Part shown: positions 32,415-64,000 of the stretch, in pieces
Layout: every line of letters begins with the position of its first letter
Position numbering within the stretch: the first letter of the stretch is position 1
Assembly: GCA_963576565.1 (NCBI GenBank)
Contig: OY755046.1
Coordinates: 71,789,719 to 71,853,718 of the forward strand
Origin: Aspidapion aeneum
Taxonomy: Eukaryota > Arthropoda > Insecta > Coleoptera > Brentidae
Length of the DNA: 64,000 bases
Direction of reading: 5' to 3'
The notes under the pieces: generated by a model
The model's database searches: none
What the model was told of the DNA's origin: nothing
The model's input: the letters and a program-made list of their open reading frames with translations, nothing else
Program-made: the position numbers and the translations under genes

Positions 32415-32445
<31 letters not shown>

Positions 32446-37569: not shown

Positions 37570-40500
37570 TTAACTACTTTTCTTAAACTTTTTGATCCAT
37601 TCTTCTTGTTTTCGTTTTATATCAGCCAAAATTTCTTTCAGATCTTTCTTATGGGGCTTATCACCTTTCTTTATCACCTCATTGTCCAACTTGCCCACTT
37701 TAACTCCATCAAGGCTTTCTTGCAGTTCCAAATTTGCTTCGTCAAATCTGCTTTGAAGATCGAAAAGTATTTTTAATTCTTTTTTGACGTTTTGATTGCG
37801 AGAAAGTTTTTTGTTCATTTCTTTGACCGTGTCCTTTTGTAACTTACAAGCATTCATCATTTCCCAAATTATTTTCGCGACTTCTTCAAGTTTTTCTTCA
37901 TCTTCTTCAGTGTTCAAAAACTTTTTTAGTTTATTTAACAGTTCAATATCTTTTTGTACTTCTTCGTCTCTGATTTTACCGATGTTCTTAACCAAATCGT
38001 TTCGAGTTTTTTGTGTGATAAACTTGAGATCACTCAAATAGTCAACAAACTTAATTTCTTTTTTAGTATTAAAGGGAGTTTTCATTTCGAATCTTGTCTC
38101 AAAATCTTCAACAACACTTGTGATCAAACTTTGTAACCTTTGTAACTTGGCTAAAATCGAAATCAACATTTTTCTCACAAATTCATTGTTATTTTTTTGT
38201 AAAGTTTCGCCTATATGTTTAACAGCTAAGTTTTTAACATTTTGCAAATCTTTAAGTTTTTCTAGTGTCTCAATTTTTCCCTCAATGTCATCAATCTTAT
38301 TATCTATGAGTAGCCTTTTCCAGTCTTCTTCAATAGATATTTTTATTTGGTGGACTTTAATCAAATCTTCACAAACTACATCATACATTTCCAAATTTGA
38401 ATTTACCAAACTGTCTATTTCGTTTAGAAGATGTGTAATGCGTTCTTTAATAACTTTTTGAGGTACAATAGCATTTTGAGTGCTTCCTACTAAGTCTGTG
38501 TGTTCTTTAGCTCTTTGAATGAGCATATCAATTTTACCTTCTTTTTCTTCCGAAGATTTGTCGTTTTTAGGAAGTATTGCTTTTTTCTTACTGCCAAAAA
38601 GCAAAGGTCGCTTAATACCATTGTACTCCATAAAAGCTAAACCCTTGTTGTCAATAATGACTCTAGGTTTTACTTTTTTAATTTGAATCTTCTTTTTAGT
38701 GGGCCTTTCTTCAGAAGATTCCAAAAAATAATCGTAATCATCTACGCTTTCTTGTTTAGGTTGTACGATGGGCTTATGCCTATTCTCGAAAATTGGTCTA
38801 AAATTAAGTTCTCGCTTCAGGTACTCCTCGACTTGACTTTGCACTTCATCCGAATCTACTACTTTAATTACGTAACGTTTTTTTCTTACGTTTGAAGAGG
38901 CCTGTTTGAGAACATTTTGAGACTTTTTGGGCTCAAAACTCACCAAGTCCTTTGAAGTTGAATCTGTAGCAATATCTTTTGAAATTTTGTTTAAAGGGCC
39001 TTTAATTTCTTGAGAACTTTCAAAAACTATTGAATATTCCGGCTGTAGATTACGGTTTTTAACTTTAATATTAGCATCAGTCATTTTTTCTTTCAAACTC
39101 TTATCAGTATAATCTTCCTTAGAGGATTTAAAAATTAAAGTATATTGTGGCTCAAAAGTCAACTGACTACGAGTTTTTATTATTTCTTTATTTACTTTGT
39201 TAGCTACTTTTTGTTTTTTAAAATCTTCCAGTTTTTCATCATCAGAATTCTTCAGTTTCAAATTCTTATCATCATGATCTTTCTCTTCTTTCGACGATTT
39301 GAAAACCAAAGTATATTGTGGCCCTATGCTCAATGGACTACTCTTTTTTGATATTTCTTTATTTTTAACACCCGCATATTTTTCATTTGGTTTAATTTGT
39401 TCTGCTTTATCTTTTATTTCTCTTTTATGTCTGCGTTGAAATCCAGGTTGAACAATTGACTCAATTACATTTGGATTAACATTATCGAAGTCTCCTATAA
39501 TATTACTAGCAAGATCCATACAGTTATTTTTGAAGTCTTTTCCAAAGTTTCTAAAGTATTTCTTTGCAGTGTAAACTAAATTCGGAAGTGTGGTCATCAT
39601 AGGGTTGATGCTCTTTTTGTTAATTGTGTGAAATTGTTTTAAAAAATCAATTGGAGCATTGAATAACATCATCATTGGGTTGTGTGAAGCCCCACTTTTG
39701 TTTTTAATTCCAAATGGATTTTTTCTTTTTTCTTTTATTTCTTTTAATTTATGTTCTCTTTCCTGTTTCTTCTGAAAATTATTTAGCTCTTCTTGTACTG
39801 CTTTCTTAATTACATTTTTACCAATAATAACATCTGGTTTTGCTAGCGCAGCAAAGGCTGGTTTCTTATTGAACAGAGAAGGATATTTTTGATGTAGTAA
39901 AGATGGTGGATGCAGTGGATAGCTTTGTTGAACTGTTGGTTCTTCAGAATAATCTGTATATCCTTCTAACTGCTCAAAACTTTGAGGTTCTTCATCAGAA
40001 CAAGCTTCGTCTTCAGTTTCTTCTTCATAATCTTCATCTGGTTGATTTTTATAACGATTGTTGTTTCTGTTTCCTACAATGTGTTTTTTAGACTCGTCTT
40101 CCTCACTAACAACCTCAATCTCATAGTGAGTAGGTAAGTCTAGTTCGTCACTACCCAAAATAATTGTTCTTTTTGGTCTTGTATCTGGATTATACATTGC
40201 ATTTCTCGAATGAATTTTAACTTTGTGTTGATGGACTTTTGAAGGGACCATACATTTTTTCATAAAGTCTGTTGCCTGTGATTCTAGTTTTGGATCTAGG
40301 TAATTGTTATTTAATCTTTTAAGTTTTTTTAGAAGCAACTTTTGATTAACCTCATTTTTAGGTTTGGTCCTAGGAACGAATCTTGATTTTTTTAATGCAG
40401 CACCTAACGTAGGATCAAGTTCTTTTTTAATTTTTTTGTATTGCATTTCTAAAATTGGATTTACAGATGTTCCCGATTTTCTTGGAACTTGACCATATTT

Positions 40501-41978
40501 GTTTCTATAAGTTTTTAATGGATTTTTAATAAGGATATTTTTATTTGGATCAAAGTAATTTGGTTTTTGTGCAATTTTACTTACCATAGAGTATTTTTGA
40601 TTTAGGTTTGGACTATTATAATACTGTGGGTTATTTTTCTTGTGAATATCATTTAATTGTTCTAATAAGCTAGCTTTTTGAGGTCTAGTGGTACTTGAGC
40701 CATGCACGTGCTTAACAGCACTATGTAGATCTTTAAATTGTTGCGGAAACAGGCTTGTGAAAAATTTACTCACTGAATTTCCAAAGTCTTCTACATGTCT
40801 TTTGTTTCTGCAATCTCTCTGGTCTTTTTTTTGACAATGGCATTCTTGACATTTATTAGAACATTTTTGACAAGGGTTTGATAAATCTCGTTTGTTTCTT
40901 GAGGTGTCAGAACATTTACAATTTTGGCATGTACATTTCGAGTTTTTCGTCCGTGTTGGTTCTCTTTTATGTCTTGACACAGCGGAGCATTCACACTTGA
41001 TACATTTACAGTTCTGACATTTACAGTTTGGGTTTTCACATGTTGTTGACGTTGTTTCGACTGAGCTAGTGTCTTTTGTGTGTGAAGAGTTTGACAGATC
41101 TCGTTTATTTCTTGAAATGTCAGAACATTTGCAATTTTGGCATTTACATTTGGAGTCTTTCGTATGTGTCGGTTCTCTTTTATGTCTTGACATATCAGAG
41201 CATTGACATTTGATACATTTACAGTTTTGACATTTACAGTTTGGGTTTCCACATGTTTTTGACGTTGTTTCGACTGAGCTAGTGTCTCTTGTGTGTGACA
41301 AATCTCGTTTATTTCTTGAAATGTCAGAACATTTGCAATTTTGGCATTTACATTTGGAGTCTTTCGTTCGTGTCGGTTCTCTTTTATGTCTTGACATATC
41401 AGAGCATTGACACTTGATGTATTTACAGTTTTGACACTTACAGTTTGGGTTTTCACATGTTTTTGACGTTGTTTCGACTGAGCTAGTGTCTTTTGTGTGT
41501 GAAGAGTTTGACAAATCTCGTTTATTTCTGGAAATGTCTGAACATTTACAATTTTGGCATTTACATTTGGAGTCTTTCGTTCGTGTCGGTTCTCTTTTAT
41601 GTCTTGACATGTCAGAGCATTGACACTTGATACATTTACAATTTTGACATTTACAGTTAGGGTTTTGACATGTTTTTGACGTTGTTTCGACTGAGCTAGT
41701 GTCTTTGGTGTGTGATGACTCTGTTTCGACTATATAAGGTTGATTTTGGTAATTTTCAACAGTTAAAATACCTTGGTGATACCCGTAAGGGATTCTTTGA
41801 TAAACTCTGGGGTAAACTGGCTGATATTGAAGTGCGTTTGCTAAATTTGGAGGCCATGTTTGTATTTCTTTGAGTTGATTGACATAGATGGGCTTGATAT
41901 ATTGTAGCTGATTGTGATAGGAATGATAAGGACATTCGCCAGGATGGGCAGAATGATAAATCTGGTATTGATCAGTAT
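37570..41978 (-). CDS. Exon 3 of the Cys-rich secreted protein, 4.4 kb
   Basis: Begins two bases before ACT at 41976 (TDQYQIYHSAHPGECP...) and stays open for 1468 codons to TAA at 37572-37570. An ATG at 41610 lies inside the repeats; the true reading frame extends 368 bases further upstream to a good acceptor (ttttttttag). Confidence 0.9.
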
Positions 41979-43972
41979 CTAAAAAAAAATAATGGCTTTA
42001 AAACAAAATACACGGTGGCTGGCAATTTTTTTTTTGATCTGTTTAAGTTTTTAAATTTTAAAACACCAAAATTTTAATTTACTGCCCTCCCCTATAAATG
42101 TAAAGTTATGTAAAAGCAACATTGTCCACTTCCAGAAACGCTAGAGGGATGAGCTTCGAAAGGCTGAAGGAACTATGATAAAACCATAGAAAAAGAAAAA
42201 AATAAAAAGCCTCAAAATTTTTAATAAAGTACTGCAAAAGTTTTGAACAATATTCCGCATATTTTACTACTTTAAAACTTAAATATTATCCAAATATTTT
42301 AAAAAAGAAGTGAAATCATAACAACAACATTTCATATAAAAAAAGCCAAGTATGCAAAATTGATATTCCGTAAAAAGAATGTAGATAAAAGTGAAGCCAA
42401 GTTCTTTAATACAAATTTCAAAATGAAAGGTTCTTACTAGTTTGTAAATCTTAGGCACAGTGCTATATTGAACATAAAGAAGTTTGGCTGTAATAGCACA
42501 AAAAATACAGCCTTACCTTGTGGTAATAGCAAAGTAAAAAAAAACATTTCCAAACTAGTAAGAACCTTTTATTTTGAAATTTGTATTAAAGAACTTTGCT
42601 TTACTTTTATCTCAATTCTTTTTACGGAATACCATTTTCGCTTACTTGGCTTTTTTTACATGAATTGTTTTTGTTATGATATACAATTCTGATTTATTAA
42701 GTCCATGTTAAATGAGAATTTAATAAATTTAATTATGTAAAGGCAAATATACTAAAAATTATCGATACATTTTTAAAATTTTTACAGAGTTGTACATACA
42801 TTCACCAGTCCTTCAAAACAAGGTGTAAAGTTTACCCCTCGAAGGGGATGCGTTCTACAAAAATTTCAAGATAGTCAAAAACTGTCCCCTTCATAAACGA
42901 AATTGTGGGTTTTTCCACATTCCATAAAAAAATACCCGAAAATACCTTTGTTAAGTTTTCGTTGAAACATACTGTACCTGTAGGTTTTGCATATGACTAT
43001 TCATTACTTAATTTACTGAGCCGATTTTAATGCAGTTTTTTTATTATTAAAAAATTACCTATATTTAAAAATTAAAATACTTACAAGAATCTTTCTTTTT
43101 AATATTGTTAAGACTTGGTATCTTGTTAACGTCAATTAGTGGTGGATCCTTTGGTTTTTGTATTAAAGCTTTAATTTCTGCCAAATCCTAAAAAAAAACA
43201 AATAAAGGCTTAACTTAATCTAAATCCCAAAAATATTTCCCCTTTTTTATTTTTATACCCAATAATTGGTTATAGAGGTATTTTTATTATGATAATTTTT
43301 CGATTTAAAAAAAAAATATTTTTTAAAATTAATTTTTTAAAAAGCAACTTTTTTCAAAAACATTTTTTTGAACAGAAATGTTTTTAAAAATATTTTTTCT
43401 AAAACTATTTTTTTCACTTTTTTCAAAACTTTTTTGAAATAATTTTTTTTTGACATTTTTGTCAAAAAAAATATTTCTTTAAACTAACTATTCTGTCCTC
43501 CTTTTGAGAGTTCGAAATAAACTGGAACAGTACCTATGGACGTCATTGTGTTAAAAAACAAAATTTTCAATTACTTTTTTTTTAAGAAAAACAATTTTTT
43601 CAAAAAACATTTTTTTTTAAACAAAGTTTTTGAAAACTGTTTAGAAAATATTTCGGAAAGAAGCGCTTTTCAAAAAAATATATTTTAAAAGTAAAGTTTT
43701 GAAAAAATGAGTTTGTTGTTTTTGAAAAAAAAAGTTCTCGAAAAGTTTGTTTTGAAAAAAATGTCGTTCCAAAAAATGTAATTAAAGAAAAAATTTTTTT
43801 AAAACGATTTTTTAAAAAAAAATTATTTTTGAAAAAACTTCCCCAACCCTTAGCCCCAAGATATAAAAAAAACTGTCACCTATATCACTCTTACCTTAAT
43901 TTTGCAATTATTTTCTTCACATTTCACACAAACGACAAAAAAAATCGTCACCAGTACTTCAATCTTTTCCAT
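37570..43972 (-). CDS. Unrecognised secreted protein with furin-bounded Cys-rich repeats, about 1529 aa, three exons
   Basis: Exons 43972-43895, 43187-43085 and 41978-37570 join in phase. Exon 1 encodes MEKIEVLVTIFFVVCVKC, a clear signal peptide. About residues 149-430 hold four tandem repeats (68-71 aa) rich in C-x-C and C-x-x-C (core CKCQNCKC). Each carries two R-x-K-R sites, SRHKR|E and SRNKR|D. Further such sites are CRNKR|H, RPKR|T, RRHKR|E and RKKR|Y. The middle part is basic, with an acidic Asp/Glu patch (EDYEEETEDEACSDEE) and three copies of a PQYTLVFKSSKE-like motif. The last 350 residues are Lys/Glu/Leu-rich and look like coiled coil. I recognise no named family. The signal peptide and dibasic sites imply a secreted, processed precursor; its function is unknown. 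The cysteine pattern resembles metallothioneins, but that is only a composition likeness. Confidence 0.88.
40880..41720 (-). repeat. Four tandem coding repeats of about 207-213 bp
   Basis: Within exon 3 the same block recurs four times: SSHTKDTSSVETTS, then a seven-Cys block, SRHKR, EPTRTKDSK, a four-Cys block and SRNKR. One copy lacks three residues (NSS). Length differences keep the frame, so selection has kept the array coding. Confidence 0.9.
42050..42700. repeat. Dispersed repeat copies in intron 2 of the Cys-rich gene
   Basis: Contains CCAGAAACGCTAGAGGGATG and TACTGCAAAAGTTTTGAACAA blocks, reverse-complementary to 29440-29670 and related to 52320-52460. The sequence AAAGGTTCTTACTAGTTTG is mirrored at 42550-42580, forming an internal inverted repeat of about 200 bp. 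Confidence 0.6.
43085..43187 (-). CDS. Exon 2 of the Cys-rich secreted protein
   Basis: 103 bases encoding DLAEIKALIQKPKDPPLIDV to KKKDS. Acceptor ttttttag, donor gtaagt. The opening DLAEI...KPKD resembles DLAKV...TPKD at the same place in the divergent plus-strand gene. Confidence 0.85.
43195..43860. repeat. Low-complexity A/T tract in intron 1 of the Cys-rich gene
   Basis: Runs of TTTTTCAAAAAC and AAAAAATTTTTT with no coding potential. Confidence 0.6.
43895..43972 (-). CDS. Exon 1 (signal peptide) of the Cys-rich secreted protein
   Basis: 26 codons from ATG at 43972. The hydrophobic core VLVTIFFVVCV is followed by KCEENNC. Ends in phase 0 at donor gtaaga. Confidence 0.88.
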
Positions 43973-44322
43973 AATATTTTTTTTTTACTTTTTCCAAAAT
44001 GGGTGTATCTTTTGCTCTAAAAAACTAAAAACTAAAAAAAAATATACATGTTGGGTTTTTCAGTTTCTTGACCCCCCTATTTATACCCTCGGTTGTTTTT
44101 ATTATTTTTTTATAAACTTTTACATGTATTTCCGAGATGGGACAACGTTGTTTTAACATGTTTTGTTTAATATTTTTTTATAGCACTCATTTAATTTGTT
44201 ATAACAAAAATATTTGGGCAAATGAACTCCAAATGAAAGTTTATAATAAATGTTTAGTGTGTTTTTAAGGTTGTCAAAGATTAAATCAAGAAATTAAAAT
44301 TAGGTTTTAGAAAAAAATTATA
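43973..44322. promoter_or_regulatory. Shared divergent promoter region of the two secreted-protein genes
   Basis: The 350 bp between the two start codons serve a minus-strand and a plus-strand gene. A strong TATA box, TATAAATAG, lies on the minus strand at 44085-44077, about 105 bp from the minus start codon. A weaker TATAATAAA at 44242-44250 lies 81 bp before the plus start codon. Shared control is inferred. Confidence 0.6.
44077..44085 (-). promoter_or_regulatory. TATA box for the Cys-rich secreted-protein gene
   Basis: TATAAATAG followed by a GGGGGG run on the minus strand. Spacing to the ATG allows a leader of about 75-80 bases. Confidence 0.6.
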
Positions 44323-44379
44323 ATGAAAAATTTGGAATGTGAATTAGTATGTTTTTTGGTGTTTTTAAGCTTTTTTAAG
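44323..44379 (+). CDS. Exon 1 (signal peptide) of the acidic-repeat secreted protein
   Basis: 19 codons, ATG at 44323. Hydrophobic core LVCFLVFLSFF. Ends in phase 0 at donor gtaagt, the same design as exon 1 of the divergent neighbour. Confidence 0.8.
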
Positions 44380-50300: not shown

Positions 50301-53300
50301 CAGACATGATTGGCAAGGCAATCCAATAATATGCAAAACCATTGGTGGAAACAAAAATATTTTTTTTAGAACCACCAAACCGATTTTACTGATTTATGCC
50401 TTTTTATGCGTGGCAAGAAAGCAGCTTTTTCGCCAATTCAAAAAATAATTAAAACATGTTTGCAACACAAGAAAACCCGAGCATCTTTGAAGGGCACATT
50501 TTAACTTCGTTCGACATCTTGGATTTTGAGATAACGGACAAAAAATATATTTAGTACAAACTCTGATTAATTATCTGCCAAATGCAGTTTGTCCCATTAA
50601 AATCAATGGTATAGTTTAAAAGTTATAAGGAAAAAAAATTGGCCGGTTTTTTTTGGACCACCCGGTATATAAGTGGGTCAAGTCATTTTGTATAGATGTA
50701 CTTTATTTTTTTAGCAAACTTGTTGCACAACCTGTGAAGAAGATTTAGCCAAAGTTTTTCGTACCCCAAAAGACTTTACCAAAGTAAATTTCGACCATTT
50801 TGAATTGCTTGAAAGAAACAATTTTGAAGTCGAACCAACTACAACCCCCTCCAGTTTAACAACTTCAAAACCGAAACATGAAGTCGACAACAAGCCAGTG
50901 TTTGCCAATGCACAAATTATGTTGAGGTTTGGTGGGGACGACATTCATGGTAAGTACCCCAACTAACATTTATAGTAGCGGCTACATGTTCTAAAGGCTT
51001 TGCTACTTTCTTATAGTAGAAATGTGGTGATCCCAACCAAAATTTGTTACTTTTTAGTTCTAACTACTATTTAGTATCAGGAAATAGTAGATGTTTCGTA
51101 AAAACGACCCTCTAAACTACTTCATAGGATTGTTTCCTGATAGTTGATTCTGATAGTCTTCTCTACCACAATAGGACGTTGCTAAAGTTTTACTTTCTTT
51201 TTAGTCGTTATTTCGTAGTCGCCCTGACTTTTATATCCTACTTAATTACCACTAGAAAGTTAAGCTTCATTGGAGTCCCAAACAAGTGTATCCGACAACT
51301 ACATTATAACTTTAATTTTTACCACAAAAGTTTGTGTCATCATAGTAACATCTGATGTAACAATGTAGACAAAATAACTTTTTGGATCAACTTTAAAGCC
51401 GCAACTACTTTCAAGTAACCTTTTCGACTATCAGGGAATATAGTTTGGGACGCCATGTTTTTATGTAAGAAAGAAAATTTAATATTTTTGTTGTCGTTTT
51501 ATGAGCTCATATTAAAGAGCCATACTATTTTATAAACAAATTAGTTGAAGCTTACCAAAAATGCTCTTCTTAAGCACCATTTGTTGGAGTTAACTGTCGA
51601 TTATGAAAACATAACCTCCAAAATCACAACACAAAAATTCCATCAGCTACCAGAAAACGGCTCAATTTTACGGGTGCACCGGTTTTTTGCAATATATATA
51701 ATGCATGTTATACAAAAAACTTTGCGTCGCACTCGAATTTTGATCCCCTGCTCGTAAATTCTCACACTTTTGGATAACATAGTTCATATTATAACCATAA
51801 CCAAACAAAAAAACTAAGCGAGTCTGTTTACTGTTGTGTCCACCATATTGTGTAACAATTCTACCAAAAAGAAACGATTATATTATTTGCAACTACATCG
51901 CAACTTTTATGCCATTACGGAAAAAAAACAGCCTCTACGACGTAGTAGATACCTGGCTACGACGTAGTAGTGTAGTTGTTACTACAGTGACTTTAAACAC
52001 TTGGCCAAGTAGTTATAACCAGAAATTGGTTCCCCACTTAGGGAATTATAACGTCGCTGTATGGTATACTGAGACGTAGCGGGAGTACGTTGCGGTTACT
52101 TTTAAGAAATTCTTTCTAGTTGAGGTTTCGTCGTTACAACTTTAATTGTTTGTTGGGACCTACCTATTTATTCAATGTTTTTGGGGGCTGGGACTAGGGT
52201 CACTGCATCCTGAGAGCCTAGCGTCTTCTGCCAGGCTTCCAGGATGCAGTGACCCTAGTTGGGACACCCTACAGGTGCCAGCTAGCGTCATTTTTTAAAA
52301 ACTATTTCTACATTTTTTTAATTATTTTTTCTACAAATTATATTATAACAAAAACATTTCATGTAAATAAAAGCCAAGTACGCGAAAAGGGTAATCCGTA
52401 AAAAGAACTGAGATAAAAGTAAAGCCAAGTTCTCCATTACAGATTTATACTACTACATTTACTACATTTTCACGTACCTACTTGACTTTTTTTAACATAA
52501 TGTTCAAAACTATTAAACAAGTTTCATGGCTAATCGGGCAAAAAGGAGTTTTTTGTTTCCCTTATATTTTTCCGTGGGTAGCTTGAAAGCTTAACCTCAC
52601 GGGGGTCCAAGATCCAATGGACACCCAACAAGTGTTGACAGTCAACCGTTCCGTCCCCATGGGACTCCTCAGAACACTGCTGGTCAAGTGACAAATCTTG
52701 CGAAGTTAATCAGACGGTTTTGTCTCTAATTAAATGTAATTAGTGAGCGAACTATAGCAAGAGGCGCCATCCACCGAGATACGAGAGAAACAAAAAACCA
52801 AAAGCAGGGAAAAACACTGCTATACAATATCGATCAATGAAAACATCGAATGCAAACAAAAGAAAACAACTATAGTCCGTGACCTACGAAACTATTGCGA
52901 GTAAAATTTTGAGGTTGTTTAATAATTTCCTATGGTTTTGCAATAGTTCCTATCAGCCTTCCAAAGCTGATCTCTCTAGCGTTTCTGGAAGTGTAAATTA
53001 TAAGTTTGGGGTTTTTTAATTTTTTTCTATAGTTTTATTATAGTTCCTTTCGGCCTTCAAAAGCTCAGCTCTCTTGCGTTTCTGGAAATGGGCAATGTTA
53101 CTTTTACATAACTTTACATTTATAGGGGAGGGAAGTAAATTAAAATTTTAGGGCTTTTAAATTTTTGCCATAGTTTTGTCATAGTTTCTTCCATCTGCTA
53201 AATCTCAGCTCTCTAGCGTTTCTGGAAGTGGACAATGTTACTTTTACATAACTTTACATTTATAGGGGAGGGGAGTAAATTAGAATTTCGGGGTACAGCG

Positions 53301-56300
53301 TGTCCCATTTTCGATGGGATTAAATGGGAAACTCGGTTATTATTAAAGATATCGATTTTCTGATTACACCTTACCGTGCTCTTTTTTGGAGCCCTTAAAA
53401 ATGGTGTAATCAGATTTTTGCTATACCCCGTGGTTTCGCTAATACAGGGAGTTTTTGAAAAAATTGCATTTAAATTAATTCCTTGTATCTCGCTTATTTT
53501 GCAAGATATTTTTATTCTATAAAAACCTTTCTATGGCAACTTTTTTAGAGCAAAATAATGGCGTTGTCAATTTTTAAAAATATTGTTTAGTTTTTGAGAT
53601 ATGGTATTTATCATAAAAAAATTAAATACGGACCTGGATTTTTTTTATTACTACTTTGATTAGTTCCATGCTATTATTACCTTAAAATGATAAAACTTTA
53701 ATATTTTTTTGATTTAAGGAAAAAAAAACTATTTAATATGTGAAAAAAAAATATAGTCCGAACCTGGAAATTTCCAACATAATTATACTTTAAAAATTGC
53801 AAGACACACTAGTTGAACGATTTTTAGTTTATCTGTTTTGAAAAGATTTATAAATAAAGTAAAAAACGTTAAAAAGTTACAAAAATAATATCATACTAAT
53901 TATTTGATTACCGAACAGCAGGTCGTGAAATTTACAAAACAAAAGCGTGGAATTGACATGGTCAGTAAAATGTCATTTTTGTGAATGGCTTACAATTATT
54001 TTAAACTGGCTAGAAATCGACCATATCCAGATTTTTAAAAATGTGATATGTTTGACTGCTTCATTCAAGCAACAAAATCCCAATATTTAAATGGCAGAAA
54101 TATTTTTATGCAAAATGCGTTAAGGAAAATTACTCAAAAATGCCAACAATGTCTTACACATAATGGTAATCAGAAAAATTAGTTATTTTTTGTATTTTTC
54201 AAAGTTTCAAATAAATCTGTAAATTAACGTAAAAGAATTTTAATATGCTAAGTATCAAAACAGTTAAACTAAAAATTGTTTAACTAGCAATTTTTAGTTT
54301 ATATTTATGTTGGAAATATCCAGGTTCGGACTATTTTTTTTTAAATATTAAATATTTTTTTCTACCTCAAAACAAAAATTTTTTAAATTTTTATTATTTT
54401 ATGATAATACTAGCATGAAACCAATCAAAATAGTAATAAAAAAAATCCAGGTCCGTATTTATTTTTTTATGATAAATACCATATCTCAAAAACTAAACAA
54501 TATTTTAAAAAATTGACAACGTCATTATTTTCTTCTAAAAAAGTTGCCATAAAAATGTTTTTACAGAATAAAAGTATCTCGCAAAATAAGCGAGATACAA
54601 GGGATTATTAAAAATACAATTTTTTCAAAAACTCCCTGTATTAGCGAAACTACGGGGTATAGCAAAAATCTGATTACGCCATTTTTAAGGGCTCAAAAAT
54701 AGAGCACGGTAAGGTGCAATCAGAAAATCAATATCTTTAATAATAACCGAGTTTCCCATTTAATCCCAACGAAAATGGGACACGCTGTACAGTAGAATTT
54801 TGATAATCTGAGCATGAGTGAGTGGCAAGTTCGACTTTTATAAAAATTTCGTAACTGCTTTACTACTTTATGGAAATCTATGAAACTTGTAGGACTTGTC
54901 AATTCTATCAATATCTACGACTGGGCAAAGTTTAAGTTTCATAAATCATTCCGAAGTAGAGATTTAGATAGGTCAAATATTGGCTGAAATGTTTCAAGAA
55001 AAGGTGGTACAGTAGTTTGCGCGAACTTGGATGGGCACTGCCGTGCCCCAGATTAAACGAAAGCGTTTTAGTTGGAAAGTTATCACATTCACAACCCTGT
55101 AGTATTCGTTTATTTATTTTCAGGTGAAAATCATGTTATGAAAGTGCCAAATCCCTCAAAATCCAGTAATTTACACAATAGAAACGGTTTTTGCGAACCA
55201 CCCGACCCATACGCAAATCACTACTATTCATTATCAGAAGGCAAATATCTCCCAATTCACCCAAGTGAGCAATACCATGGCCCATCTCACAGTATGGCAC
55301 CATATTGCCCAGTGGCCCCACATAACCCACAGGCCCCACATAACCCACTGGCCCCATATAACTCACTGGCTGCTATTCACCCACAGGCCCCATATACCCC
55401 ACTGGCCCCTTATAATCCAGTGACCCCATATGACCCAGTGGGTTCATATAATCCGCTGGTACCCAGTGCGTACTACCCACCGCCGTTTTATCATGATTTG
55501 CAGCCAGCTTTGGTGCCAAAACGACATGAATGCCAAAGGTAAGATATAAAAAAGGTCTCAACGAAAATTTGACAGCCCTACTTTTTAATATACCGGGTGG
55601 GCCAAAAAAAACCGGACAATTTTTATTTCATTATAACTTTGGAAATATACCATCGATTTTAATGGAACAAACTGCACTTGGCAGAGGAAGAATCAGAGGT
55701 TTGACTAAACATATTTTTTTGTCCGCCATTTCAAAATCCCAGATGAAGCACGAAATAAAATTATGCCCTTCAAAGATGCTTGTTTATTATTGTGTTGCGA
55801 AAATATTTTAGTTATTTTTTTAATAAGTAAAAAGCGGCATTCTTACCACACACAACAAGGTACGAATTAGCAAAATCGGTTTAGTGGTTCTAAAAAAAAA
55901 TATTTTTGTTTCAACCATTGTTTTGAATATTATACGATTGCCTTACCAGCCACGTCTGGAATTATTTCCTTATAAATTCATTACTACTATACCGATTTTA
56001 ATGAAATAAAAAACATCCTGAATCATACTTGATTCTTCAAAATGACGTGCTCTACTTTTTCCCCAAACAACGAGGTAGAAACTAGTAAAATCAGTATGGC
56101 GGTTCTTAAAAAATCTATTTTTGTTTCAAGCATTATTCTACAGATTATACGATTGCTTTGCCAATCCTGCCTGTATTAATTTCCTTATAAATTCGTTATT
56201 ACTGAACCAATTTTAGTGAAATAAAAAATATATAAGAATAAACCCGCCATTTTAATGAATTAAGTATTATTCTGTCCCCATCTTAAATCTTAAGATATCG

Positions 56301-59300
56301 ATAAACTTATGAGCATGAAGTTAGCGAAGCACCCATCGCAGATCGAATCGTGACTAGGTGGATAATTTGCCGTTAATTAGTCGTGAATTAGTTGTGGAAA
56401 AATTAATTTTGTCGCTCTTATTTTTGACCGTTTTTGATGGTGCTTCGCTAACTTCATATGAAGTTAGCGAAGCACCCTCGTAAAAATGGCTTTTATCAAA
56501 ATCGAATATGGTGGATAATTTGCCGCTAATTAGTCGTGAATTAGTTGTGGAAAAATTAATTTTGTCGCTTTTATTTTTTACCCTTTTTTTGGATGCTTCG
56601 TTAACTTTATATGAAGTTAGCGAAGCACCCTCGTAAAAATGGCTTTTATTAAAATCGAATATGGTGGATAATTTGCCGTTAATTAGTCGTGAAATAGTTG
56701 TGGAAAAATTAATTTTGTCGCTCTTATTTTTGACCGTTTTTGAGGGTGCTTCGCTAACTTCATATATGATGTTAGCGAAGCACCCTCGTAAAAATTGATT
56801 TTATCAAAATCGAATATGGTGGATAATTTGCCGATAATTATTCGTGAATTAATTGTGGAAAAATTAATTTTGTCGCTCTTATTTTTGACCGTTTTTGAGG
56901 GTGCTTCGCTAACTTCATATGAAGTTAGCGAAGCACCTTCGTAAAAATGGCTTTAGATATGACGTATCGAAATCGAATATGGTGGATAATTTGCCGCTAA
57001 TTAGTCGTTAATTAGTTGTGGAAAAATTAATTTTGTCGCGTTTAGTTTTGAGTGTTTTTTGGGTGCCTCTCTAACTTTATATGAATTAACCGAAGCACTC
57101 AAAAAACGGTCAAAAATAAGAGCGACAAAATTAATTTTTCCACAACTAATTCACGACTAATTAGCGGCAAATTATCCACCATATTCGATTTTCATAAAAG
57201 CCATTTTTACGAGGGTGCTTCGCTAACTTCATATGAAGTTAGCGAAGCTCCCTCAAAAACGGTCAAAAATAAGAGCGACAAAATTAATTTTTCCATAACT
57301 AATTAACGGCAAATTATCCACCTAGTCACGATTCGATCTGCGATGGGTGCTTCGCTAACTTCATGCTCATGATAAACTTTGATCATGATCTTTAAAAAGC
57401 AATCAATTCTTACCAGGATGTTTTTTATTTCATTATAATTGGTTCAGTAGTAATAAATTTATAAGGAAATTAATGTAGACATGATTGGCAAAGCAATCGT
57501 ATAATATGAAAAACAATGGTTGAAACAAAAATATTTTTTTTAGAACTACTGAACCGATTTTGCTGATTCGTACCTTGTTGTGCGTGGCAAGAATGCAGCT
57601 TTTTCACCAATTCAAAAAAATAATTAAAACATTTTTGCAACACAAGAATAAACGAGCATCTTTGAAGGGTACATTTTGTTATCGGCCGCCATCTTGAATT
57701 TTTAGATGGACAAAAAGATATATTTAATCAAAACTCTGACTAATTCTCCGCCAAGTGCAAGTTTGTCCCATTAAAATCGATGATAAAAAGCTTACGAGGG
57801 TTTAAAGGTGGGATTTTGGATAATTGGAGAAAATTTTTTTTTTAAATTTATATCTCTTTAGCCGTGACTCTTAGGACCCAAGTTCCAAGGTTGAAAAGGT
57901 AGCAAATGACCCCAACAATATCCCAAAAAATTTTGACGATTCATGTGCAGAACACCCTGTATAGGTATAAGTAATTTTTTTAGGTATTATCACCCTTATC
58001 CGCCTCCTCCACCCTTTGTGTTTCCAAATTACTATTACCTAATACAAAATGGCGTCTATGGAGGAGTACCGCCTCATTTACCTAAAGAGCTGCAAGACAT
58101 TGTTGAAAAGTACTACCAAGATAAAGGCAAACAAAGAACAAATCCGCAAGGGTGTGGCATTATCAAAGGTAACTCACATTAGATAATCACAGTGTGCCTG
58201 ATTGAAGTATAGGTTACATAAAAATGGTTCCTAAAACTGAAAAATGGCAAAAAATTCATAAAATTTCGAGAAGAGGATCAGCTAGGATTTATATAAATAT
58301 CGCTCTGAAGTCAAGAAAGAGTCCATATTCAAAATGTGCAATTAGTTTTTGGAGCCATTTTTATGTAACGTATACTTCGTTCAGGGACACTGTGTAATAC
58401 CTTTATTGAAGAAAAATACAAAAAAACGCATTTAACTCTGTATTTTATTTTTTTAGAAATCGAAGAAAACAAAGAAAGTCAAGAAAAGAAAGTTTCTAAA
58501 CCCAAAGAATTACAACAATCATCTGTAGTAAAAGATTTGACACAGACTTCAGTTTTAGATAAAGTTGTACAGCAGCTTAAAAAATTATATAATGAAAATT
58601 TAACAAATGGTGAAGGTGATTCAAAGATTACAAAGAGCGTAGACTGTGAAAAAGCCATAAAGCAGTCGGAAAGTCAGTTATTTTCTGGCAATAATCCATT
58701 TACAACTGAGGAAATTTCAAAAATTAGGCAAGACGAAATATTTAAACAAGTACTTAATATGCTTAAAAATACAAAAAATGTTCAAAACAATTTTGATGAT
58801 TTCAATTTTGAAAACCAGCTCGAGAGAAATAAAGTAAAAGTAACACCTTCTACTTTTCAGAATTCTGGTATCAGAGTAAATGAGGGTGAGGATGATCAAG
58901 CAGGTCAAAAAATAAGTAATGTTAAAGATACTATTAATAACGCCGATATTAAATTGGCTGGTTCAACCAATCAAGAAGAATTAAATGAATATATTAAAAA
59001 AGTTGGAAAAAATTTAAATATTGATGATACAAATGAATCAGTAGGTGTTGCTGATACCCCTACAAATTTTGACAGCTCTAGTCTTAAGGATACCGCAGAT
59101 AAAAACTATGAAAATGTCAACACAAAAGAAATCAATATTGCTGACACAAGTGAAATAGAAGCTATTGCTGATATTCCTATACATTTTGACATTTCCAGTT
59201 TAGAGGATACCACAAATAAAAATGATAAAGACGCCATAATTGGACAAACTAATATTGCTGACCCAACTGAAATAGAAGCTTCTCCTGATATCCCTGCAAA

Positions 59301-62300
59301 TTTAGATAGCCCTTGTTTTGAGGATAAAAAAGTTAAAAATAATAAAAAGTTTATTTCAGCAGAAACCAATATTGATGATTCAACTGAAACAGAAGCTATA
59401 GCTGACATTCCTGCAAAATTCGACAGTTCTAGTTTAGAAGATATCAAAAATAAAAATGATGAAGAGGTAATAATTGGAAAAACTAATATTGATGAAGCAA
59501 CTGAAATGGAGGCCATCGCTGATAGTCCAGCGAATTTCGACAGCTTTTATTTAGATGACAATACAAATAAAAAGATTAAAGAAACTATCACGGGAGAAAT
59601 AAATACTGATGACACAAATGAAATGGAAGCTATTGCTGAAAGTCCTGAAGATTTAGAAAGCTTTAATTTAGATGACAATATAAATAAAAATAATAAAGGT
59701 GCTATAACGGGAGAAATTAATATTGAGGACTCAACTGAAAACGAAGCTATTGCTGATATTCCTGCAAATTCAGATAGCTCTAGTTTTGAGGATAAAAAAG
59801 TTAAAAATAATAAAAAGTATATTTCAGCAGAAATCAATATTGATGATTCAACCGAAACAGAAGCTGTAGCTGACATTCCTGAAAATTTTGACAGTTCTAG
59901 TTTAGAAGATATCAAAAATAAAAATGATAAAGAGGTAATAATTGGAAAAACTAATATTGATGAAGCAACTGAAATGGAGGCCATTGCTGATACTCCTGCA
60001 AATTTCGACAGCTTGAATTTAGATGACGAAACAAATAAAAATAATAAAGAAACTATCACGGGAGAAATAAATACTGATGAAACAAATGAAATGGAAGCTG
60101 TTGCTGATATTCCTGCAAATTTAGATAGCTCCTGTTTGGAGCACACAGATAAAAATAATAAAAAGTATATTTCAGCAGAAATCAATATTGATAATTCAAC
60201 TGAAGAAGAAGCTATAGCTGACATTCCTGCAAAATTTGACAGTTCCAGTTTAGAAGATATCAAAAATAAAAATGATAAAGAGGCTATAATTGGAAAAACT
60301 AATATTGATGAAGTAACTGAAGTAGAGGCCATTGCTGATACTCCTGCAAATTTCGACAGCTTTTATTTAGATGACAATACAAATAAAAATATTAAAGAAA
60401 CTATCACAGGAGAAATAAATACTGATGACACAAATGAAATGGAAGCTGTTGCTGATAGTCCTGAAGATTTAGACAGCTCTAATTTAGATAACAATATAAA
60501 TAAAAATATTAAAGATGCTATAACGGGAGAAACTAATAATAAGGACTCAACTGAAAACGAAGCTATTGCTGATATTCCTGCAAATTTAGATAGCTCTAGT
60601 TTTGAGCACACAGATAAAAATAATCAAAAGTATATTTCAGCAGCAATCAATACTGACGATTTAACTGAAACAGAAGCTATAGCTGACATTCCTGCAAAAT
60701 TCTGCAGTTCTAGCTTAGAAGATATCAAAATTAAAAATGATAAAGAGGTAATAATTGGAAAAACTAATATTGATGAAGGAACTGAAATGGAGGCCATTGC
60801 TGATAGTCCTGCAAATTTCGACAGCTTGAATTTAGATGACGATACAAATAAAAATATTAAAGAAACTATCACGGGAGAAATAAATACTGATGACACAAAT
60901 GAAATGGAAGCTATTGCTGATATTCCTGCAAATTTAGATAGCTCCTGTTTTGAGCACACAGATAAAAATAGTAAAAAGTATATTTCAGCAGAAATCAATA
61001 TTGATGATTCAACTGAAACAGAAGCTATAGCTGACATTCCTGCAAAATTTGACAGTTCTAGTTTAGAAAATATCAAAAATAAAAATGATAAAGAGGCTAT
61101 AAATGAAAAAACTAATATTGTTGAAGCAACTGAAATAGAGGCCATTGCTGATACTCCTTCAAATTTCGACAGCTTTAATTTAGATGACAATATAAATAAA
61201 AATATTAAAGAAACTATTACGGGAGAAATAAATACTGATGACATAAATGAAATGGAAGCTATTGCTGATAGTCCTGAAGATTTGGACAGCTCTAATTTAG
61301 ATGACAATATAAATAAAAATATTAAAGATGCTATAACGGGAGAAATTAATATTGAGGACTCAACTGAAAACGAAGCTATTCCTGATATTCCTGCAAATGT
61401 AGATAGCTCTAGTTTTGAGCACACAGATAAAAATAATAAAAAGTATATTTCAGCAGAAATCAATACTGATGATTTAACTGAAACAGAAGCTATAGCTGAC
61501 ATTCCTGCAAAATTCTGCAGTTCTAGTTTAGAAGATATCAAAAATAAAAATGATAAAGAGGTAATAGTTGGAAAAACTAATATTGATGAAGCAACTGAAA
61601 TGGAGGCCATTGCTGATAGTCCTGTAAATTTCGATAGCTTTAATTTAGATGACAATACAAATAAAAATAATAAAGAAACTATTACGGGAGAAATAAATAC
61701 TGATGACATAAATGAAATGGAAGCTATTGCTGATAGTCCTGAAGATTTAGATAGCTCTAGTTTTGAGCACGCAGATAAAAATAATAAAAATTATATTTCA
61801 GGAGAAATCAATATTGATGATTCAACTGAAACAGAAGCTATAGCTGACATTCCTGCAAAATTTGACAGTTCTAGTTTAGAAGATATCAAAAATAAAAATG
61901 ATAAAGAGGCTATAATTGGAAAAACTAATATTGATGAAGCAACTGAAATGGAGGCCATTGCTGATAGTCCTGTAAATTTCGATAGCTTTAATTTAGATGA
62001 CGATACAAATAAAAATAATAAAGAAAGTATCACGGGAGAAATAAATACTGATGACACAAATGAAATGGAAGCCATTGCTGATACTCCTTCAAATTTCGAC
62101 AGCTTTAATTTAGATGACAAGACAAATAAAAATATTAAAGAAACTATTACGGGAGAAATAAATACTGATGACATAAATGAAATGGAAGCTATTGCTGATA
62201 GTCCTGAAGATTTGGACAGCTCTAATTTAGATGACAATATAAATAAAAATATTAAAGATGCTATAACGGGAATAATTAATATTGAGGACTCAACTGAAAA

Positions 62301-64000
62301 CGAAGCTATTGCTGATATTCCTGCAAATTTAGATAGCTCTAGTTTTGAGCACGCAGATAAAAATAATAAAAATTATATTTCAGGAGAAATCAATATTGAT
62401 GATTCAACTGAAACAGAAGCTATAGCTGACATTCCTGCAAAATTTGACAGTTCTAGTTTAGAAGATATCAAAAATAAAAATGATAAAGAGGCTATAATTG
62501 GAAAAACTAATATTGATGAAGCAACTGAAATGGAGGCCATTGCTGATAGTCCTGTAAATTTCGATAGCTTTAATTTAGATGACGATACAAATAAAAATAA
62601 TAAAGAAAGTATCACGGGAGAAATAAATACTGATGACACAAATGAAATGGAAGCTATTGCTGATATTCCTGAAGATTTAGACAGCTTTAATTTAGATGAC
62701 AATATAAATAAAAATAATAAAGATGCTATAACGGGAGAAATTAATATTGAGGACTCAACTGAAAACGAAGCTATTGCTGATATTCCTGCAAATTTAGATA
62801 GCTCTAGTTTTGAGCACGCAGATAAAAATAATAAAAATTATATTTCAGCAGAAATCAATATTGATGATTCAACTGAAACAGAAGCTATAGCTGACGTTCC
62901 TGCAAAATTTGACAGTTCTAGTTTAGAAGATATCAAAAATAAAAATGATAAAGAGGCTATAATTGGAAAAACTAATATTGATGAAGCAACTGAAATGGAG
63001 GCCATTGCTGATAGTCCTGTAAATTTCGATAGCTTTAATTTAAATGACGATAAAAATACAAATAATAAAGAAAGTATCACGGGAGAAATAAATACTGATG
63101 ACACAAATGAAATGGAAGCTATTGCTGATTGTCCTGAAGACTTAGAGAGCTTTAATTTAGATGAAAATATAAATAAAAATAATAAAGATGCTATAACGGG
63201 AGAAATTAATATTGAGGACTCATCTGAAAACGAAGCTATTGCTGATATTCCTGCAAATTTAGATAGCTCTAGTTTTGAGCACCCAGATAAAAATAATAAA
63301 AAGTATATTTCAGCAGAAATTAATATTGATGATTCAACTGAAACAGAAGCTATAGCTGACATTCCTGCAAAATTTTACAGTTCTAGTTTAGAAGATATCA
63401 AAAATAAAAAAAATGATAAAGAGGCTATAATTGGAAAAACTAATATTGATGAAGCAACTGAAATGGAGGCCATTGCTGATAGTCCGGCAAATTTCGATAG
63501 CTTTAATTTAGATGACAATACAAATAAAAATATTAAAGAAACTATCACGGGAGAAATAAATACTGATGACACAAATGAAATGGAAGCTATTGCTGATAGT
63601 CCTGAAGATTTAGACAGCTTTAATTTAGATGACAATATAAATAAAAATAATCAAGGTGCTATAACGGGAGAAATTAATATTGAGGACTCAACTGAAAACG
63701 AAGCTATTGCTGATATTCCTGCAAATTCAGATAGCTCTAGTTTTGAGGATAAAAAAGTTAAAAATAATAAAAAGTATATTTCAGCAGAAATCAATATTGA
63801 TGATTCAACTGAAACAGAAGCTATAGCTGACATTCCTGCAAAGTTTGACAGTTCTAGTTTAGAGGATATCACAAATAAAAATAATAAAGAGGTTATAAAT
63901 GGAAAAACTAATATTGATGAAGCAACTGAAATGGAGGCCATTGCTGATAGTCCTGCAAATTTCGACTGCTTTAATTTAGATGACGATACAAATAATAATA
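44323..64000 (+). CDS. Unrecognised secreted protein with Pro-rich and long acidic repeat regions, five exons seen, incomplete at window end
   Basis: Exons are 44323-44379, 50715-50949, 55124-55538, 57984-58168 and 58457 to beyond 64000; every junction is in phase. Exon 1 encodes MKNLECELVCFLVFLSFFK, a signal peptide. Exon 2 starts QTCCTTCEEDLAKVF and has a Thr/Ser/Pro stretch. Exon 3 has Pro/Tyr/His-rich six-residue repeats (APHNPL, APYNPV). Exon 4 continues with YYHPYPPPPPF. Exon 5 is a helical stretch followed from about 59020 by about 40 units of 39 residues, rich in Asp, Glu, Asn and Ser. About 2145 codons are visible with no stop. I recognise no named family. It may be an extracellular structural, adhesive or glandular protein; this is inference from composition, signal peptide and repeats. 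Confidence 0.87.
44425..50125. repeat. Tandem array of about 1,066-bp units
   Basis: CCGGGTG recurs at 44888, 45954, 47021, 48086 and 49444 (steps 1066, 1067, 1065 and 1358). Units hold TGTCTGTTCGTGTGTTAGTCTG, CCGGTCAAATTTTTTTCATTA and CAAGATGGCGGACG blocks. The segment beginning AGGTCCTAGAATGGCACC (44424) recurs at 48981. It fills intron 1 of the acidic-repeat gene and does not code. Confidence 0.92.
50126..50667. mobile_element. Right end of an ACCGGGTGG-family element
   Basis: Reverse complement of the left-end text found in each array unit (TTGTCCCATTAAAATC, AAAGTTATAAGG), ending GGACCACCCGGTA. With the left end at 44886 it brackets the whole array. Confidence 0.7.
50715..50949 (+). CDS. 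Exon 2 of the acidic-repeat secreted protein
   Basis: 235 bases from QTCCTTCEEDLAKV to GGDDIH plus one base. Acceptor ttttttag, donor gtaagt. Contains EPTTTPSSLTTSKP, a likely O-glycosylated linker type. A transposon terminus lies 47 bp upstream of the acceptor. Confidence 0.88.
50950..52190. other. Intron 2 of the acidic-repeat gene, unclassified
   Basis: Moderately AT-rich with repeated GTAGTAG/CTACTA words (for instance 51020-51130 and 51930-51990), but no clear terminal repeats or coding sequence. Confidence 0.4.
52193..52259. ncRNA. MicroRNA-like hairpin in intron 2
   Basis: ACTAGGGTCACTGCATCCTG (52193-52212) pairs perfectly with 52240-52259. After one mismatch, six more pairs follow (GAGCCT with AGGCTT, one of them G-U), then a mismatch and a G-C pair, leaving a 9-base loop. 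Total 67 nt. Shape and size fit a pre-miRNA, but a transposon palindrome would look the same. Confidence 0.35.
52320..53295. repeat. Dispersed repeats in intron 2 of the acidic-repeat gene
   Basis: Holds the GATAAAAGTAAAGCCAAGTTC block (see 42050-42700), the inverted relative of 27840-28080, and three loose 125-bp units around CTCTCTAGCGTTTCTGGAAG (52970, 53075, 53210). The family continues at 54790-55055 after the TA-flanked insertion. Confidence 0.65.
53296..54787. mobile_element. TA-flanked element with long inverted repeats, copy 2
   Basis: Same ends and arms as 8889-10416, flanked by TA (53294-53295, 54788-54789). The internal 65-codon frame is broken by a TAA near 54030. It is inserted in a dispersed-repeat copy whose two halves rejoin cleanly when it is removed. 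Confidence 0.85.
55124..55538 (+). CDS. Exon 3, Pro/Tyr/His-rich hexapeptide repeats
   Basis: 415 bases. After GFCEPPDPYANHYY the protein runs through about eight six-residue repeats of the form (A/T)P(Y/H)(N/T/D)P(L/Q/V), roughly 55296-55460, and ends VPKRHECQ. The underlying DNA is a GC-richer minisatellite of 18 bp. Confidence 0.9.
55590..57790. mobile_element. ACCGGGTGG-family element, right end truncated
   Basis: Starts TACCGGGTGGGCCAAAAAAA (55591). The mirrored right part (AGATGGACAAAAAGATATATTTAATC ... TCCCATTAAAATCGATG) stops before the terminal CCACCCGGTA. Lies in intron 3 of the acidic-repeat gene. Confidence 0.65.
56305..57375. repeat. Palindromic satellite of about 150-bp units inside an inverted repeat
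   Basis: GAAGTTAGCGAAGCACC begins units near 56317, 56459, 56611, 56768 and 56920, each closed by GGTGCTTCGCTAACTTC. After about 57070 the units run in reverse. The outermost text (ATGAGCATGAAG..CGATTCGATCTGCGATGG) is mirrored at both ends. Confidence 0.85.
57984..58168 (+). CDS. Exon 4 of the acidic-repeat secreted protein
   Basis: 185 bases encoding YYHPYPPPPPFVFPNYYY, then GVPPHLPKELQDIVEKYY and CGIIK. Acceptor ttttttag, donor gtaact. Confidence 0.88.
58457..64000 (+). CDS. Exon 5, acidic tandem-repeat exon, open to window end
   Basis: Starts at acceptor ttttttag. The first 190 or so residues are non-repetitive (EIEENKESQEKKVSKPKEL ...), with heptad-like stretches. From about 59020 the frame is a chain of units around EAIADIPAKFDSSSLED. 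I checked the frame line by line and found no stop through 63999. All repeat indels are multiples of three. Confidence 0.92.
59020..64000 (+). repeat. Acidic 39-residue repeats in a higher-order array
   Basis: Units of about 117 bp are grouped in three to five. The marker ISAE/ISGE (ATTTCAGC/GG) falls at 59353, 59821, 60169, 60634, 60982, 61447, 61795, 62377, 62842, 63307 and 63778. Steps are 468, 348, 465, 348, 465, 348, 582, 465, 465 and 471 bp, all divisible by three. By my count single units carry a net charge near -5 to -8. Confidence 0.92.

Follow-up and report, generated by a model that had tools for sequence, protein, structure and literature searches.

Two large genes, referred to here as gene A and gene B, lie head to head in the window, which is the whole stretch of 64,000 nucleotides that was analysed (Table 1). 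Gene A starts at an ATG at position 43972 on the minus strand, and gene B at an ATG at 44323 on the plus strand, leaving 350 bp between them. This spacing had been noted in a sequence-only reading of the same DNA, together with first exons that end in phase 0 and tandem repeats in both genes. All three features were recovered, the first exons ending at GTAAG donors and the repeats falling within long open frames. An in-frame stop codon was found upstream of both start codons. Gene A is made up of three exons and encodes a product of 1529 aa. Gene B has five exons, and its four in-window introns have GT/AG boundaries with consistent phases. It continues beyond the window to a stop codon in the adjoining genome stretch (65803–65805 on the window scale), giving a product of 2746 aa. 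As the first intron of gene B consists of 6.3 kb of repeats, exon 1 is the least certain part of this gene model.

Table 1. Positions of the features of gene A, gene B and the spacer between them, in window coordinates
Feature	Position	Strand	Remarks
Gene A exon 1	43895..43972	minus	Start codon, hydrophobic signal-type N-terminus, phase 0 end
Gene A exon 2 (DLAEIKALIQKPKD...)	43085..43187	minus	In-frame junction with exon 3 at Y61
Gene A exon 3, residues 61-1529 including stop	37570..41978	minus	Longest frame in 200 mononucleotide shuffles 160 codons
Gene A Cys-rich block, residues 150-454	40798..41712	minus	Four ~70-aa repeats and a shorter Cys-rich tail
Furin-type RPKR, residues 661-664 of gene A	40168..40179	minus	
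Furin-type RHKR, residues 910-913 of gene A	39421..39432	minus	
Furin-type RKKR, residues 1092-1095 of gene A	38875..38886	minus	
Gene A C-terminal region, residues 1200-1529	37573..38562	minus	Predicted helical, low confidence
Spacer between start codons	43973..44322	none	350 bp, AT-rich, GC 0.23
TATAAATAG box	44077..44085	minus	113 bp upstream of gene A ATG; shuffle mean 0.034
Gene B exon 1	44323..44379	plus	Start codon, hydrophobic N-terminus, phase 0 end
Gene B exon 2 (QTCCTTCEEDLAKVFRTPKD...)	50715..50949	plus	
Gene B exon 3	55124..55538	plus	Pro/Tyr/His-rich, repeats of an 18-bp unit
Gene B exon 4	57984..58168	plus	Pro/Tyr-rich
Gene B exon 5, in-window part	58457..64000	plus	Runs off the window
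Gene B acidic array	59127..64000, continuing past the window	plus	~39-aa units

Several other features were seen around the pair. Minus-strand exons of the histone acetyltransferase HAT1 adjoin gene A at window positions 31171–33354 (Hat1_N, E 8.5e-14; PDB HAT1, E 3e-24), and a further HAT1 exon, read by eye, seemingly lies near 28.3–28.6 kb. Between HAT1 and gene A there is a retrotransposon fragment on the plus strand (33795–34472), with a match to RNase H (E 1.4e-7) and a sub-cut-off match to zf-RVT. Intron 1 of gene B (44420–50000) holds several near-identical copies of a ~1.07-kb unit in which the same small frames recur, possibly a satellite or a nested mobile element, and the intron preceding exon 4 includes a tandem array of ~153-bp units (56357–57098). 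A minisatellite downstream of gene B (bases 4187–5474 of the adjoining stretch) is open in three frames with KNSKIQKF repeats, which is not evidence of a gene.

Both gene A and gene B are real coding genes. When the exons were shuffled 200 times at the mononucleotide level, open frames reached at most 160 codons for exon 3 of gene A and 108 codons for the in-window part of exon 5 of gene B, against observed frames of about 1469 and more than 1840 codons, respectively. The repeats also carry a record of selection. For the four repeats of gene A (six pairs) pS was 0.248 and pN 0.038, while for gene B, using the 30 units of exactly 39 residues among 40 listed spacings, pS was 0.313 and pN 0.171 (dN/dS 0.48). 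The repeats with Cys and furin-type sites in gene A are therefore tightly constrained, and the acidic repeats of gene B more loosely.

Exon 3 of gene A begins with a Pro/Tyr/His-rich segment, followed by the Cys repeats, a Lys-rich middle and a C-terminus that is predicted to be helical with low confidence; a single-sequence fold of the last 357 residues was helical but unreliable (mean pLDDT 45.0, pTM 0.27). The Cys-rich block contains 49 of the 58 Cys in gene A, a content of 16% (49/305), and only one aromatic residue in its 305 residues. It includes nine R-x-K-R sites and ten CxCxxCxC motifs, of which 5000 shuffled versions of the block had 0.18 on average and never more than 4. In gene A as a whole, R-x-[KR]-R sites were found 12 times, above chance expectation (mean 0.48 and maximum 5 in 2000 shuffles), with eight in the four repeats, one at the end of the Cys tail and three further on. 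RHKR/RNKR sequences are conserved, and all eight sites are kept across the four repeats; in one repeat a Cys is replaced by Tyr. The mature product has a pI of 9.27, a net charge of +80 and 14.8% Lys, in agreement with the original description of a basic, Lys/Cys-rich protein with R-x-K-R sites. If all 12 candidate sites were cut, 13 pieces would result, of which 12 carry a net positive charge and one a charge of -4. Eight of these are short, Cys-rich and net positive (25, 30, 43 or 46 residues with 4–7 Cys), and the four pieces of 25 residues have 4 Cys each and no aromatics. Separately, a short motif recurs at window positions 39000–40130 on the minus strand (HYEIEVVSEE, QYTLVFKSSKE, QYTLIFKSSKE and EYSIVFESSQE, at residues 678, 948, 1005 and 1041), and is possibly a strand-forming or phosphorylatable repeat.

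Gene B had been described as strongly acidic with Pro/Tyr/His-rich repeats. The acidity stands (pI 4.17 and net charge -354 for the full-length product), but the Pro/Tyr/His-rich repeats are separate from the acidic ones and lie in the upstream exons 3 and 4. The acidic array comprises more than 40 repeats of ~39 aa, rich in D, N, E and I, which are often grouped in fours (~155 aa). When ten successive groups were aligned, six had four units (155–157 residues), three had three and one had five. Two furin-type sites were found near the end of the full-length protein, at residues 2485 and 2575, each preceding one copy of a duplicated module with LNLPY...PCCNRFQFSEDFFPEQ. The module is ~60 residues long and has the pattern DLHM-[SR]-[LF]-G-[GS]-TYVNHQDDLLLNLPY...PCCNRFQFSEDFFPEQ (bases 1017–1802 of the adjoining stretch). 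The gene B array is probably a flexible, acidic, disordered chain. No stable structure was predicted for a repeat unit modelled together with 10 paralogous rows (mean pLDDT 47.3, pTM 0.09), which fits disorder but does not prove it, and every 150-residue window of in-window gene B from residue 301, the array included, fell on the disordered side of the charge-hydropathy index.

An EF-hand identity for the gene B repeats was considered, and the scores behind it were read as a probable effect of composition. The whole-protein scores of 29.2 bits (cut-off 25) and 26.6 bits (cut-off 25.4) against Pfam EF-hand models sum many weak pieces; no single stretch passes, the best covers 15 residues, and no EF-hand was found by Pfam in a single 155-residue unit. 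Weak calcium binding by the array would be compatible with these scores. The motif Ser-x-Glu, a phosphorylation motif of the Fam20C type, occurs 53 times in in-window gene B against 18.4 in shuffles and 19 times in gene A against 9.0, an excess that was not built on because the shuffles ignore the copying of motifs by repeats.

The sequence-only reading had assigned a signal peptide to both products, and hydropathy is consistent with this. The most hydrophobic 11-residue window of each whole protein is N-terminal (residues 6–16 in A and 8–18 in B). No internal membrane segment was detected by hydropathy at a threshold of 1.6 over 19 residues, the best window past residue 30 reaching 1.27 in A and 1.26 in B. 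Reading from the sequence, a plausible signal cleavage point follows VKC in gene A. The cleavage point of gene B is less clear, with no good small-residue site within exon 1. The products appear to be secreted precursors, for which the selection on the gene A repeats and the presence of furin-type sites in each protein are some further support. Those sites are candidates for furin processing of both products. Overall, the secretion, opposite charge and repeat architecture originally proposed for the pair are backed by features of the sequences.

A further claim, that the second exons of both genes share an opening of the form DLA(E/K)...PKD, did not hold. Exon 2 of gene B opens with QTCCTTCEE, so that nine residues precede DLAK, and when the two second exons were compared 394 of 2000 shuffles scored as well. 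The best of seven comparisons between A and B, using exons 1 and 2, was equalled by 103 of 2000 shuffles. In four comparisons between the C-terminus of gene B and further regions of the two proteins, the best result was equalled by 43 of 500 shuffles. Descent of A and B from one duplicated gene was rejected, as none of the seven comparisons was convincingly above shuffles. The likeness in plan, with a signal exon, a short exon, a Pro/Tyr/His-rich part, repeats and furin sites in both, is compositional.

Searches for relatives gave no credited match in Pfam (exon 3 of A, the spliced N-termini, the in-window exon frames of B and the C-terminus of B), in NCBIfam (exon 3 of A and the in-window exon frames of B) or among PDB sequences (exon 3 of A, one Cys repeat and the C-terminus of B). 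For the pieces searched in these three collections there was also no clear match to an intracellular family, the finding that the sequence-only reading had named as contrary to its proposal. Ten PDB matches to the gene A Cys repeat, all to zinc-finger proteins at E 0.045–8.4, were set aside as composition. In a large protein database, exon 3 of gene A gave 6596 candidates, and for residues 1–520 of gene B the 7987 candidates with the most shared words were scored, none at E<=1 in either case. When three pieces of HAT1 were run against the same database as a control, 3 of 69 candidates were found at E<=1e-10, two of them named snail proteins and one unnamed. As this control returned no insect match, the database seems to lack close relatives from insects, and absence from it says little about insects. 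No relative of exon 3 of A or exon 5 of B was found among viral contigs, and no paper describing either protein was found, judging by title and the start of the abstract.

The genome to which the window belongs (1.286 Gb, 149 contigs) was searched in six frames, and only the best candidates were followed up. Among these no paralogue of gene A was detected, exon 3, the Cys repeat and the N-terminal exons matching gene A only (one of 7, four of 5 and three of 8 candidates, respectively). The gene B repeat unit matched 18 places among the best 50 candidates, all of them in gene B itself, and the C-terminus of gene B found itself and, at E values of 0.79 and above, nine weak matches interrupted by stop codons, none a credible paralogue. 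Telomere arrays of (CCGAA)n were seen at the left ends of six of the 11 large contigs (C1, C2, C3, C5, C6 and C10). No such array was present at any of three right ends or in two small contigs that were also inspected. Telomeres of the TTCGG/CCGAA type were described in the earwig Labia minor as a novelty among insects, and arrays of this type were reported for three further earwig species (PMC11829193). The telomere arrays thus make an earwig a likely, though unproven, source of the genome.

We tentatively favour the reading, to which we give a little less than an even chance, that the pair encodes two secreted precursors that build one extracellular product, such as an eggshell, a glue or some other coat of glandular or epithelial origin. 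Both proteins would enter the secretory pathway via their N-terminal signal peptides. Furin-type convertases would then cleave the gene A product at as many as 12 sites into the eight short Cys-rich peptides and larger, mostly Lys-rich pieces, and would cut gene B twice near its end, giving a chain of ~2465 residues with a net charge of about -330 and the two C-terminal modules. The long acidic chain from B, if disordered as predicted, may attract the mostly basic pieces of A, after which the Cys runs together with Lys and Tyr could cross-link the mixture. The head-to-head placement may allow A and B to be switched on together. The charges of the predicted pieces, 12 of 13 net positive in A against -330 for the main piece of B, were counted in favour of this reading. 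Counted against it were the missing sequence kinship of A and B, the whole-protein charges of +80 and -354, which give no one-to-one balance, the poor cleavage site in exon 1 of gene B and the uncertainty of that exon, and the searches, in which no homologue of known function was found. Head-to-head gene starts are also frequent in animal genomes, so the arrangement alone says little.

The main alternative, which we consider unlikely, is that gene A is the precursor of small metallothionein-like peptides that furin releases and that bind Cu or Zn either extracellularly or while still in the secretory pathway, with gene B an unrelated or accessory neighbour. The ten CxCxxCxC motifs, the near absence of aromatics from the block, the aromatic-free 25-residue pieces with their 4 Cys and the purifying selection on repeats that carry both Cys and furin sites would all fit such peptides. 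However, the block, one repeat and one 25-residue peptide had no metallothionein match in Pfam at E values up to 10, in searches where the HMMER filters drop most weak matches, and in one repeat a Cys position is taken by Tyr. Typical metallothioneins also have a Cys content above the 16% of the block, and extracellular Cys usually oxidise to disulfides.

It is likewise improbable that A and B are two unrelated, fast-evolving genes, secreted or in part non-secreted, that lie head to head by chance and are separate in regulation and function. The spacer contains three matches to TATA[AT]A[AT], including TATAAATAG, a box with a mean of 0.034 in 5000 mononucleotide shuffles counted on both strands. 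All three face gene A and none within the 350 bp faces gene B, which was also weighed against the reading of one extracellular material, where joint regulation would be conjectural. Together with the lack of kinship and the weak cleavage site in the signal peptide of B, this favours chance neighbours. On the other hand, both products have signal-type N-termini, Pro/Tyr/His-rich segments, repeats and furin-type sites, and their net charges are opposite.

Less likely still is that gene A codes for several defence or signalling peptides in one multi-copy precursor, similar to insect antimicrobial precursors whose tandem units are cut at basic sites, and gene B a separate acidic secreted protein. 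The tandem units split by furin-type sites and the eight short, net-positive, Cys-rich pieces are as this would predict, but the Cys in gene A are too densely spaced for known defensin-type folds, and there is no Pfam match. In addition, 1075 of the 1529 residues lie beyond the Cys block with just three further sites, and a long tail with few cut sites is unusual among peptide precursors. That one or both genes are artefacts, i.e. decayed or non-coding repeat arrays, is very improbable, for although the introns of gene B hold tandem and transposon-like repeats and 6.3 kb separates its first two exons, the open frames far exceed those of shuffled sequence and synonymous changes per site exceed non-synonymous ones in both arrays.

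Returning to the reading of one extracellular material, a more specific form of it is that a single-copy pair, by conjecture restricted to earwigs, makes an insect coacervate cured by metal or by thiols. Cys peptides resembling those of metallothioneins, freed by furin and perhaps carrying metal, would cross-link a giant disordered polyanion in this material. This we regard as a long shot. The combination of conserved CxC repeats bounded by furin-type sites with a giant divergent polyanion is above routine, though surprise is limited as repeat-rich secreted proteins of no identified family are common in insects. If A and B are co-secreted, they would represent a simple insect system in which head-to-head genes encode an acidic scaffold and the basic precursor of the peptides that cross-link it, and would provide a molecular handle on earwig eggshell or gland material. 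No protein-level study of earwig eggshell or gland material was found, judging by title and the start of the abstract. The release of CxCxxCxC peptides from a repeat precursor by furin-type cutting is a directly testable claim.

Pfam includes chorion families and a Dec-1 family, and the pieces of A and B run against it matched neither; moth chorion proteins are also far shorter than A and B. Gene A resembles metallothioneins in its block of dense CxC and CxxC with almost no aromatics, but differs in its signal-type N-terminus, furin-type sites, lower Cys content and lack of a Pfam match. In the silkmoth, pairs of chorion genes are described as transcribed divergently from short bidirectional promoters, and the chorion of Hyalophora as hardened by disulfides (PMC13409908). 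The A/B pair is similar to the silkmoth chorion A/B genes described there in gene layout only, as a head-to-head secreted pair with a short spacer and one Cys-rich member (PMC13409908); unlike those pairs, A and B are not kin and have furin-type sites. Drosophila Dec-1, an eggshell protein distributed via multistep extracellular processing according to a reference cited in PMC3102670, offers a comparator for processing of the eggshell-precursor type. Brownie, a protein of the cockroach eggshell, is described as secreted, with a tandem repeat and no known relatives at the time (PMC2792769). A and B, predicted to be secreted, have tandem repeats and no relatives found, and are similar to it in these respects; Brownie has only 112 residues, and the text available to us from that source notes no Cys-rich or acidic array (PMC2792769).

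The closing comparison, with sandcastle worm cement, crosses to a different phylum, and the acidity of gene B comes from Asp and Glu, whereas that of the cement comes from phosphoserine. The cement contains oppositely charged proteins, and its acidic and basic components have been proposed to coacervate through their charges after secretion (PMC4275877). Like the proteins in that account, the predicted secreted products of gene A and gene B are basic in one case and highly acidic in the other, with charges of +80 and -354, and could associate by charge (PMC4275877).
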